A stretch of DNA of 32,930 bases, from assembly GCA_020629005.1 (NCBI GenBank), contig JAHDEE010000049.1:1-32930 (forward strand), written 5' to 3'. Under the pieces are notes generated by a model. That model saw nothing but the letters and a program-made list of their open reading frames with translations, was not told the origin of the DNA and did no database searches. The translations under genes were made by a program, and so were the position numbers. How positions within the stretch are numbered: position 1 is the stretch's first letter; every line of letters starts with the position of its first letter. This DNA is from Chitinophagales bacterium (GTDB taxonomy: Bacteria; Bacteroidota; Bacteroidia; Chitinophagales; UBA2359). This document shows positions 2,591 to 32,648 of this stretch, piece by piece.

Positions 2591-2738
2591 TTTTTGGTAC
2601 CAATATATGCATTACTGTCGCAATGGAATACCCTTTAGAGACCCAATATTGCGCTTGCTATGATGTTAGACTGGTAAAGTGGATAAGGTCGTCTGAATTC
2701 AGGTAGGTCGTTATAAATGCTGGCGCGAAGAAGGTAAG
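2591..2738. other. Intergenic stretch without recognisable gene
   Basis: The reading frames crossing this stretch have no family resemblance and run into the dispersed repeat. The only local structure seen is a 10-bp palindrome CTGAATTCAG at 2693-2702. I see no promoter box with confidence. Confidence 0.5.
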
Positions 2739-2917
2739 TGCAGAATAGCCCCGGGCGACGAGGAAATGAGTGCTGCGACTGCCGTGGCGACTGCTTAGCA
2801 ATGGGGGCTCGGAGCCTGCGGAGAGACCACAGTGCTAATGCAGGAGCAGGCAGGGGCAGTACGAATTGGAACAAAGCACGGGGAGGAAGTTAACGCGAAG
2901 GGAAGATGCTTCGCTCC
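2739..2917 (+). repeat. Dispersed 179-bp intergenic repeat, copy A
   Basis: This segment aligns over its whole length with the reverse complement of 30800-30978. Both copies are 179 bp and share about three quarters of positions by eye. A 36-base stretch from CAATGGGGGCTCGGAGCC through GACCACAGTG (2799-2834) is identical. The ends are TGCAGAATAGCCCCGGGCG and GCTTCGCTCC. Frames through it exist on both strands but have no start or family that would mark a gene. It could be a non-autonomous mobile repeat or a structured RNA. Confidence 0.8.
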
Positions 2918-2970
2918 AAAAGGACATAACTTTCAACTTTTGCTGCTATTCTATCAGCTTGTCAGGGCAC

Positions 2971-3008
2971 AAAAAAAGCCGTCTCTTCTTTCGAGACGGC
3001 TTTTCTTT
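2971..3008 (-). terminator. Intrinsic terminator of the atpDC operon (bidirectional)
   Basis: The stem pairs AAAAGCCGTCTC (2974-2985) with GAGACGGCTTTT (2993-3004). Read on the minus strand, a run of seven T follows the stem. It lies 20 bases past the atpC stop. The plus-strand side also has a T-rich tail, so it can stop transcription from both directions. Confidence 0.92.
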
Positions 3009-3027
3009 TTCATCAAACATCAATATA

Positions 3028-3273
3028 TCATGAAGATGCTCCTTCTACAAGGACCACCACTTGATTATTAAGAACTTCTACAAAGCCGCTTGCGATTTGT
3101 ATGACTTGCTCCTCTTTTCCTGTGTTGATTCTGAGGGTGCCTTCACCAAGCGCAGCGATCAATGGGGCGTGGTTGTTTAGAATTTCGAAACTTCCTTTAA
3201 CGCCTGGAAGCTGGATGCCTGTAGCATCTCCATCAAAAACTTTTTGAACTGGTGTCAATACCTGTACATTCAT
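3028..3273 (-). CDS. atpC: F1F0 ATP synthase epsilon subunit, short form
   Basis: The 81-residue product (MNVQVLTPVQKVFDGDATGI...) matches the N-terminal beta-sandwich of the epsilon/delta subunit, which joins the gamma subunit to the c-ring. It includes the conserved segments LPGVKGSFEILNNHAPLIA and GFVEVLNNQVVVLVE. The C-terminal helical hairpin that in many bacteria inhibits ATP hydrolysis is absent. The stop lies 20 bases before a strong terminator, so this is a natural short form as usual in Bacteroidota rather than a truncation. It follows atpD by 11 bases and is certainly co-transcribed with it. The rest of the ATP synthase genes are not in the window. Confidence 0.95.
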   Translation of the reverse strand: MNVQVLTPVQKVFDGDATGIQLPGVKGSFEILNNHAPLIAALGEGTLRINTGKEEQVIQIASGFVEVLNNQVVVLVEGASS

Positions 3274-29859: not shown

Positions 29860-29867
29860 CATACTTA

Positions 29868-30023
29868 GGGATAGGGAATCAATAACTGTCCGATTTTGAC
29901 GTCGCTGGAAATGATTTAGACGAGGCATTTTTTGACAGCATCCTTGTTGGCTGGTGGAGAAAAATAACGATGGATAAATCATTTCTAGCAAGTCAAAATG
30001 GACATTTATTGATTCGCTGTCCC
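29868..30023. mobile_element. MITE-like palindromic element with TTA target duplication
   Basis: The left arm (29868-29918) and the reverse complement of the right arm (29975-30023) align over about 50 bases with few mismatches and two single-base gaps. The outermost 24 bases differ at three positions (GGGATAGGGAATCAATAAC versus GGGACAGCGAATCAATAAA, then TGTCC in both). TTA flanks the element on each side (29865-29867 and 30024-30026) as a 3-bp target duplication would. It has no coding capacity. It sits 8 bases after the divIC-like stop and 31 bases past the end of the convergent dehydrogenase gene. Confidence 0.7.
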
Positions 30024-30054
30024 TTAGCAAAGCCAATCCAGACCAGGCTCAAAA

Positions 30055-30762
30055 TCAATCTCCTAAGTCACCAAGCATGGGGCGCATGATCAACTCCTCG
30101 ATCACCGTACGCTGCGAGAGCACATAAGCATTGTAAACCACATCAGCCACATCTTCCGAAGACATAAACCGCGACTCCGGAATATCCGCACCCGCCCAGG
30201 AGTTTGTATAAGTGGCGCCCGGTAGCAAGCTCGTTACGCGCACATTAAAAGCCTTCATCTCTTCCCGCAGCACCTTCGAAAAACCGAGCATAGCAAATTT
30301 GCTAATGCAATAGGATCCACCATTTGTATAAGGCACCACACTAGCCGTCGAACACACATTAAATACGTGACCTTCCTTGCGCTCTTTCATGCCACCAATC
30401 AAACTACGAGTCAAGTGATAGGCACTGTACAGGTTGGTATTAATCTGTCGTTCCAGCACCCCATCCTCTTCATCCGACAACATTCCAGGCAAGTAGAATC
30501 CCGCATTGTTTACCAGCACATCCACATGATCAAAAGCCTCCGCCATCGCCTTTCCAAAAGCCATCACCTCCTGCTTCACCGACATATCCGTAACCGAAGT
30601 AATCACCCGCACACCATGCGCCTCCTCAATCGCAGCCTTCATAGCTGCCAGATCCTCCGCATTCCTCGCACACACCCCCAAATCAAATCCCTCCGCAGCA
30701 AAGCGCTCAGCAATCGCTCTCCCAATTCCCTTGGTAGCACCAGACACTATTATAGATTTCAT
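30055..30762 (-). CDS. Short-chain dehydrogenase/reductase
   Basis: This 235-residue classical SDR has a Rossmann fold. The cofactor motif SGATKGIG (7-14) and NNAG (85-88) are present, and S138, Y151 and K155 (YCISK) form the catalytic set. An Arg at 33 (CARNAEDL) after the second beta-strand suggests NADP(H) preference, as in many SDRs. A substrate cannot be assigned. The C-terminal part (NSWAGADIPESRFMSSEDVA) is like that of uncharacterised or sepiapterin-reductase-like members. It is a single gene with a -7 box 17 bases upstream. Base composition is richer in C than that of the ribosomal genes. Confidence 0.9.
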   Translation of the reverse strand: MKSIIVSGATKGIGRAIAERFAAEGFDLGVCARNAEDLAAMKAAIEEAHGVRVITSVTDMSVKQEVMAFGKAMAEAFDHVDVLVNNAGFYLPGMLSDEEDGVLERQINTNLYSAYHLTRSLIGGMKERKEGHVFNVCSTASVVPYTNGGSYCISKFAMLGFSKVLREEMKAFNVRVTSLLPGATYTNSWAGADIPESRFMSSEDVADVVYNAYVLSQRTVIEELIMRPMLGDLGD

Positions 30763-30786: not shown

Positions 30787-30799
30787 GCAAAAAAGATTA

Positions 30800-30978
30800 G
30801 GAGCGAAGCGCCGCCCCAAGAAGAAACGGGCTACCCGTGCTTCGTTCCAAATCGCACTGCGTCTGCCTACTCATGCTCTGCCACTGTGGTCTCTCCGCAG
30901 GCTCCGAGCCCCCATTGGCAGGCATTCGTTTACGGCAGCCACAGCACTCTTTTCCTCTGCGCCCGGGGCTATTTTGCA
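30800..30978 (-). repeat. Dispersed 179-bp intergenic repeat, copy B (inverted)
   Basis: The reverse complement aligns end to end with 2739-2917 (copy A), with an identical 36-base core (30883-30918 on this strand), equal total length and the same ends. The plus-strand frame that crosses it has no start near and is antisense to the SDR gene upstream, so I treat it as non-coding. Its right end lies 21 bases before the GGATTACGGA motif at 31003. Confidence 0.8.
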
Positions 30979-31002
30979 GCTGCAGTGGAAGTATGGGATA
31001 TG

Positions 31003-31070: not shown

Positions 31071-31193
31071 TTACTAATCTAAGTAAACGTGCCTCAAGTC
31101 TCGACCACTATCGCGGCGAAGCACCAAACACGAACAATTCCCCAAAATTTGACCACCCAAAATTCTTTATCTTCATTGAAAAACTCCCCTCCA

Positions 31194-32648
31194 ATGCCCA
31201 TTACCTTACCGAAATGGAAACTACCTGTCCTTGTTGCGCTGCTGGTGCTTTGCAGCGTCCTAGTGACCAGCAGTTTCGAAAGCATGGATAGCAGATCCAA
31301 ACTGGAATTGACTTTGCCAAAGCTCGACTCCTTACATCAATACCTCGCCTATGATCAGCCAAGACTGGCATTCATCAACGCCACCTTGATTGACGGAACC
31401 GGTCGGCCAACGAGGTTTCAGCAAACCATCCTGGTTGAGCATGGACACTTCAAAGCCTCTGGTGATTCCGATAGCATTCAGGTTCCGAAGGGCTTCTTGC
31501 AAGTGGATCTGGAGGGAAAAACCATTATCCCTGGCATTGTAGGAGCACACAATCATTTGCATATGCCTGGCTTCGCATTTATAGGAGATGTCGCATCAAC
31601 CCTGCATTTGGCCTGCGGGGTCACCACTATCCAAACATGCGGTGCAGCATCACCGCTAAAAGAACTCGCTCTGGCAAAACGCATAGCACAGGGCATTCAA
31701 CTGGGACCAGACATTATAAACAGCGGACCTTACTTCACCGGTCCTGGTGGTAGCACGGCAATGGTAATACCGAGGAACGCCGGGCATATTGAAGATACTA
31801 TGAAACACTGGATTGACAAGGGAGCCAGGTGGTTCAAGGTGTATCGCCACACGAGGCCTGAGGATCTGCAAACGATCATCGAAACGGCACATAAATATGA
31901 CTGCAAGGTCTCGGGACACTTCTGTTCCGTCACCTTTGAAGAGGCCATCGGAATGGGCATAGACGGGATTGAACATGGGCTGAAGAGCGCCAGCGATTTC
32001 CGGACGGACAAGAAACCCGGCCTATGCGGAGGAGCCAGAACTTACATGGACGAGCTTGCAATTGATGGACCAGAGGTGCGTCGACTACAGCAGATGATGA
32101 TCGACAGCGCTGTGTTCCTGACCTCTACCTTATCAATCACAGAAACGAGGGTGCCGCAAAGGTCCTTTGCCGATGAACGAACCAGGAAGGCCATGTCCCC
32201 TTATTTGCTTCAAGAATATACAAATCGACGGTTACGGCTGGATGAGGACCTGAAAAAATTCAAGGAAGAAAAACGCTTCCAAAGGGTGATGGCCTTCGAT
32301 GCACAATTCTTTGAAATGGGTGGCTTGCTGGCTTCTGGAGTAGATCCTGGAAGGCATAATCTGCCAGGCTTCGGAGATCAGCGCAATTATGAAATCTTCC
32401 TGGAAGCTGGCTTGAAGACGGAAGAGGCAATTCAGGTGATGACCAGCAATGGGGCAAGAGTACTTGGTCTTGATCATATCGGCACAATAGAAATTGGCAA
32501 GCGAGCCGACTTCGTGATTTTAGATGGAATCCTCTCAGATGATGCCTGCGTGATCAAACGTGCAGAGACGGTGTTCAAGGCGGGCATCGGTTATGATTCT
32601 GCCAGATTGCTGGAAACGACGGATGGAAAAGTGGGTTTGGCTGATTGA
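31194..32648 (+). CDS. Exported amidohydrolase family protein
   Basis: The 484-residue product starts at ATG 31194 with a basic, hydrophobic N-terminus (WKLPVLVALLVLCSVLVTSS) that is either a signal peptide or a membrane anchor. The start further upstream would put 35 non-conserved residues before it. The metal-dependent hydrolase set is present: H119 and H121 (AHNHLHMP), K215 (WFKVYRH, the probable carbamylated lysine), H242 (SGHFCS), H261 (EHGLKS) and D384 (ASGVDPGRHN). It ends in the small beta-sandwich (IGKRADFVILDG). It resembles imidazolonepropionase/prolidase-type amidohydrolases; the substrate is not evident. It is probably periplasmic and monocistronic. Confidence 0.9.
   Translation: MPITLPKWKLPVLVALLVLCSVLVTSSFESMDSRSKLELTLPKLDSLHQYLAYDQPRLAFINATLIDGTGRPTRFQQTILVEHGHFKASGDSDSIQVPKGFLQVDLEGKTIIPGIVGAHNHLHMPGFAFIGDVASTLHLACGVTTIQTCGAASPLKELALAKRIAQGIQLGPDIINSGPYFTGPGGSTAMVIPRNAGHIEDTMKHWIDKGARWFKVYRHTRPEDLQTIIETAHKYDCKVSGHFCSVTFEEAIGMGIDGIEHGLKSASDFRTDKKPGLCGGARTYMDELAIDGPEVRRLQQMMIDSAVFLTSTLSITETRVPQRSFADERTRKAMSPYLLQEYTNRRLRLDEDLKKFKEEKRFQRVMAFDAQFFEMGGLLASGVDPGRHNLPGFGDQRNYEIFLEAGLKTEEAIQVMTSNGARVLGLDHIGTIEIGKRADFVILDGILSDDACVIKRAETVFKAGIGYDSARLLETTDGKVGLAD

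Follow-up and report, generated by a model that had tools for sequence, protein, structure and literature searches.

The segment at positions 2739-2917 of the analysed stretch of DNA (32,930 nucleotides, hereafter the window) and the reverse complement of 30800-30978 both belong to a non-coding repeat, long and folded, that is present in at least 150 copies, and their occurrence as a pair in the window is incidental. The two segments are best read as copies of a non-coding dispersed repeat that is an enlarged member of a superfamily of Flavo-1-like hairpins in Bacteroidota. The core of this element is under selection for the fold of one strand, and the sequences of core and flanks have separate histories. 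On balance we favor the explanation that this is an old dispersed hairpin repeat of the Flavo-1-like superfamily, in which recombination exchanges cores between fixed sites.

The Window Copies and the Anatomy of the Element

Both window segments are intergenic and 179 bp long, and their global alignment contains 141 identities in 180 columns, the longest exact match being 36 bases at 2799-2834, just as the original prediction of two alignable segments with a 36-base identical core had described. Copy 1, on the + strand, is flanked by the terminator-like hairpins of two genes that converge on it, a secreted-protein-like gene on its left (1289-2521, + strand) and an atpC-like gene on its right (3028-3273, - strand). 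Copy 2, on the - strand, is neighbored by an SDR-like gene (30055-30762, - strand) and an amidohydrolase-like gene (31089-32648, + strand); all four genes were named by eye. A near-palindromic second repeat of ~160 bp, belonging to a separate family, is located at 29865-30026; it is ~95% identical to a sister-species sequence (L168:2269-2426) and is present at many loci in the genome that carries the window.

From its 5′ end, the element comprises a flank of 22 nt, then the 143-nt core that forms the hairpin, then a variable linker (~27 nt), and lastly a conserved 3′ box, GCTCC(A/T)AA. In copy 1 (+ strand), the variable 5′ flank occupies 2718..2739, the hairpin core of 143 nt with its interrupted stem 2740..2882, the variable 3′ linker 2883..2909, and the 3′ box (TTCGCTCC, then AAA) 2910..2920. 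The corresponding parts of copy 2 (- strand) are at 30978..30999 (5′ flank), 30834..30977 (core), 30808..30833 (linker), and 30797..30807 (TTCGCTCC, then TAA). The 36-base stretch identical in both copies (2799..2834, + strand in copy 1) represents the apical stem and terminal loop. The 5′ flank is degenerate, with a loose consensus of CGCGnnGGAnnGnnGGT among 87 copies, and the 3′ box, TTCGCTCC(A/T)AA, lies 33-35 nt past the core.

In the 437 kb scanned, the motif TCGCTCC[AT]AA accompanied a core in 65 instances and occurred a single time on its own, inside an enolase-like coding sequence. The 3′ box thus occurs only with cores and is part of the element rather than a pre-existing target, and the idea of the flanks as pre-existing target sites was rejected as no core-less 3′ box was present outside coding sequence. 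The flanks were also rejected as target duplications, as similarity within a copy showed no excess. Pairing between the 5′ flank and the 3′ linker was likewise rejected (own pairs versus shuffled pairs, p 0.59 in the sister species and a marginal p 0.04 in the window's own genome); the test showed no effect for the 3′ end, and no covarying stem was found in the flanks.

Selection on the Fold of the Core

The 143-nt core forms a single long interrupted hairpin, in which 96.6% of cells were paired among 40 copies, versus 76% after shuffling and 26-38% with the partners slid; 330 double-changed cells were observed versus 95. A covariance model and a check for compensatory changes, as the original prediction had proposed, revealed strong covariation, with changes on both sides in 38 of the 43 pairs (40 copies). 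Between copies that are mutual nearest relatives, 88 of 121 changed pairs stay paired, 60 through double compensatory changes and 28 through pair-preserving single changes, and therefore the fold has been under selection on recent branches as well. Among 87 copies there are 144 G-U pairs versus 3 A-C pairs, indicating that the element's own + strand is the one whose fold is kept, a strand bias that does not separate RNA from single-stranded DNA. The core of copy 1 folds at -59.8 kcal/mol on its own strand versus -46.7 on the opposite strand, and that of copy 2 at -56.2 versus -41.6.

Copy Number in the Genome

The genome containing the window is a 6.9-Mb Chitinophagales draft of 96.7% completeness. 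BLAST of the 174-bp unit, which matches the second window copy with an E-value of 6.7e-36, located it in at least 40 places of this genome. The covariance model built from 40 copies (referred to as R1) detected at least 150 copies, all with E < 1e-23, including copy 1 (160.3 bits, E 9e-35 in the whole genome) and copy 2 (155 bits, E 1.8e-33). The true copy number is higher, since further copies were seen beside R1 matches in the fetched stretches. The copies are intergenic and in both orientations, with no preferred gene orientation or consistent gene context.

At this density, one to two copies are expected per 33-kb window, and the window pair is therefore unremarkable: the two copies do bracket the ribosomal cluster, as originally described, but they have no special status among at least 150 copies. 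The same count excludes a core confined to these two places. The proposal that the segments belong to a structured RNA or a mobilised repeat is supported by the covariation, the preference for one strand, and the number of dispersed copies.

Surroundings and Candidate Mobilisers

The surroundings of the element are asymmetric. In the window's own genome, 26 copies have a contig end within 500 bp on their 5′ side, versus 4 with one on the 3′ side; period-7 tandem repeats are present in 22 of 132 5′ flanks versus 4 of 131 3′ flanks, and shared repeats in 52/127 versus 17/130. The sister species (G001) shows the same direction (5′ versus 3′, 12 versus 5 contig ends; 9/43 versus 2/47). The period-7 units are locus-specific (GGGTAGA, AGGGTAT, TTTTGGT, and others), for example on the 5′ sides at L014, L033, and L117. 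Close neighbors are always inverted, mostly with their 5′ sides facing each other: among copies less than 2.6 kb apart, 9 pairs are divergent, 2 convergent, and none tandem in the window's genome, and 5 are divergent, 3 convergent, and none tandem in G001. Divergent pairs at G000 C390:9575-10965 and C304:106978-107878 enclose a ParD/ParE-like toxin-antitoxin gene pair and a carbonic-anhydrase-like gene (by eye).

Such an arrangement could reflect the ends of accessory cassettes, with copies facing their 5′ sides inward to enclose mobile cargo. The predominance of divergent pairs in the window's genome would agree with this, as would the enclosed segments (besides those above, ArsR + GNAT, by eye) and the excess of contig ends on the 5′ side. 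We nevertheless regard it as very improbable, because most copies lack a close partner, target duplication is not seen, and the window pair has its 5′ sides outward. Further, close pairs in the Flavobacterium-like genome G123 enclose housekeeping-type genes (truA-like and aroE-like), and cassette cargo as a general rule is not supported there.

The element resembles the REP/BIME/REPIN and RAYT systems in being intergenic, hairpin-forming, of high copy number, and accompanied by inverted neighbors. REPs are palindromes of 20-40 bp with a GTAG or CGTC tag, and inverted neighbors are common among them (PMC3733652). In contrast, the element here is a 143-nt interrupted hairpin in which no GTAG/CGTC-type tag was recognised, and it has no consistent Y1 partner. 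If it were REP-like and owed its movement to a Y1 (RAYT/IS200-type) transposase with single-stranded hairpins as its substrate, the repeats would be end products of transposition, and close copies that are always inverted and never tandem could be understood, as could the position of all three Y1_Tnp genes of the window's genome within ~1 kb of a copy. However, two of these three have their own, different repeats, and no Y1_Tnp match was found in the Flavo-1-rich complete genomes G139 (28 copies) and G193 (27 copies), which speaks against Y1/RAYT as an obligatory partner. Size and tag are also unlike those of REPs, and movement of whole elements would bring the flanks along, which is not seen; Y1-driven movement is thus quite unlikely. 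RAYT-like Y1 transposase genes beside other repeats are located at G000 C137:1365-1913 and on C17 (L136:1396-1941), and a GGCGCGACGGGGACGTCACGCC repeat near the Y1 gene on C137 recurs 5′ of several elements.

The element is also structured, strand-specific, and dispersed like repeats derived from retroelements (group II introns and retrons). It differs from these in that the RVT_1 reverse transcriptase domain (PF00078) has 0 matches in the window's genome at its 96.7% completeness, and a reverse transcriptase was rejected as the partner. Searches of plasmids, phages, and viral contigs gave no match to the element at the sensitivity applied.

Separate Histories of Cores and Flanks

Among 31 pairs of cores that are more than 90% identical, the 5′ flanks are 41% and the linkers 38% identical, versus 37% and 40% respectively in random pairs, and Mantel correlations of core similarity with that of flank and linker are 0.04 and -0.04. 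The two closest cores (98.6% identical) resemble each other from CAAAATAGCC to GCACGGG and no further. The window's genome and that of the sister species are both draft MAGs, and misassembly could join wrong flanks, but it would not give two near-identical cores four unrelated flanks.

About 10 of 49 sampled copies of the sister species have a partner at the same place and in the same orientation among 134 sampled copies of the window's genome, and a further two to three site pairs are at the same place in opposite orientation. The cores at ten shared sites rank at the 51st percentile of similarity, that is, they are like random copies. Same-place elements could partly reflect insertion hot spots, given that neutral sequence between both species is near saturation. 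The site of window copy 1 is among those shared, as a G001 contig ends inside the 3′ part of an element beside atpC in the same orientation. This bears on the earlier suggestion that the inverted window pair could act as a switch inverting the ribosomal region by recombination. The two copies are indeed inverted and have 36 identical bases in common, yet any two of at least 150 copies could serve, and the 3′ end adjacent to atpC has kept its place and orientation in the sister species; we consider such a switch extremely unlikely, and the suggestion is not upheld.

The cores themselves are mosaic, as distances from the two contiguous halves of the 5′ arm correlate with r 0.33 versus 0.55 ± 0.04 for random halves; linkage along the core falls only modestly beyond 6 nt. 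The tree of copies contains species-specific expansions, which would also fit continuing transposition by some enzyme. Taken together, the independence of the flanks, the shared sites with unlike cores, and the mosaic cores favor old fixed sites with recombining cores, the recombination itself being what we infer.

Under the favored explanation, the elements would sit at old fixed chromosomal sites, and recombination across the hairpin, either gene conversion or a cassette-like exchange, would overwrite their cores with those of other copies. Such overwriting may keep the family alike while the flanks drift. For REPs, gene conversion has long been proposed, judging from the title of Higgins et al. 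(1988), cited in PMC12306157. The folded strand, whether RNA or single-stranded DNA, would be recognised by some factor, since structure is kept while sequence is not. It is conceivable, though rather doubtful, that a dedicated process exchanges each core as a unit, for instance by cutting the extruded hairpin and then copying from a different site.

Relationship to Flavo-1

R1 matches were listed in 8 of 60 related genomes, including the window's own. At least 53 copies are present in the sister species G001, 22 in G006, and 9 in G040, while G004, G020, G015, and G017 have a few weak matches. The opening and closing arms recur in the short elements of G004, G020, and G017, which have a small apical stem. 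One of these short intermediates scores 42.9 bits as Rfam Flavo-1 (RF01705; gathering threshold 42 bits), and a second scores 35.1 bits, below the cut-off. The window contains no Flavo-1 match at the gathering threshold and none at E up to 10 for 2650-3000, its genome has 0 Flavo-1 matches, and no other Rfam family was credible in the window.

R1, built from long copies, matches the short elements of G020 and others, with no direct match to Flavobacterium-like loci. A second model (R2), built from nine short intermediates of three genomes only, matches Flavobacterium-like Flavo-1 28 times at E up to 1 (best E 1e-9) as well as long elements of G000, G001, and G040 (best E 7e-9), with a weak match to window copy 2 (E 0.09) and none to copy 1. 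As R2 finds both, they constitute one superfamily, in which the long elements are connected to Flavo-1 by continuous homology through the intermediates. The window copies do not reach the Rfam threshold and are therefore placed in a Flavo-1-like superfamily rather than called Flavo-1. The original statement that no named family could be recognised thus holds for the two copies, but not for the superfamily, which reaches Rfam Flavo-1.

Both Flavo-1 and the window copies have the opening TAGCCC.GAT.G.AG.GG.AAT, a closing arm of the same kind (AACGGATAGCGGG and variants), and many dispersed copies per genome. After the hairpin, they also have in common a GCTCC(A/T)AA 3′ end (window 2910-2920 and 30807-30797; Flavobacterium-like L175 and L182), a feature seen in this analysis that lies outside the Rfam model. 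They differ in that the window copies are ~60 nt longer and rich in GC; in the window copies the apical stem and loop are elaborated and the 3′ linker is longer, and these copies do not score against the Rfam model. A motif, GAGGGATAGTAGTGGAAAT...AACGGATAGCCCG, at L079, L086, L092, L081, and L183 in other genomes seems to be a second branch of this superfamily.

Flavo-1 itself is a dispersed repeat, with 30, 99, and 94 copies in three Flavobacterium-like genomes, and is present in 21 of 148 Bacteroidota genomes sampled. It was described as a probable RNA that is not cis-regulatory (Weinberg et al., 2010; PMC2864571), and is classed as sRNA in Rfam. This classification, the strand-specific fold with G-U pairs, and the several sites kept between species would suit a family of trans- or cis-acting regulatory RNAs, every copy of which is transcribed and functional in place. 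We find this unlikely, because the gene and orientation context is inconsistent and position-specific function would oppose free core exchange. Moreover, Flavo-1 hits in Flavobacterium psychrophilum are indistinctly sense or antisense to transcribed regions, with many outside them (PMC9723704). Within the open-licence literature, we found no report on the long form or on core exchange.

Implications

Since 2010, Flavo-1 has been listed as a probable RNA of unknown function, and it is recognised here as the short form of a superfamily whose copies in some Chitinophagales are large and strongly structured and number at least 150 per genome. The core and flanks of these copies evolve apart at partly conserved sites. 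If dedicated exchange is true, the histories of core, 5′ flank, and 3′ linker would be unrelated, and the element would be a self-homogenising repeat that spreads via its fold, without a transposase of its own. Readings of such motifs from one copy, as riboswitch, sRNA, or inversion site, can mislead. An orphan RNA motif thereby becomes a testable question of repeat dynamics, namely which strand is bound, what binds it, and in which way cores are exchanged.
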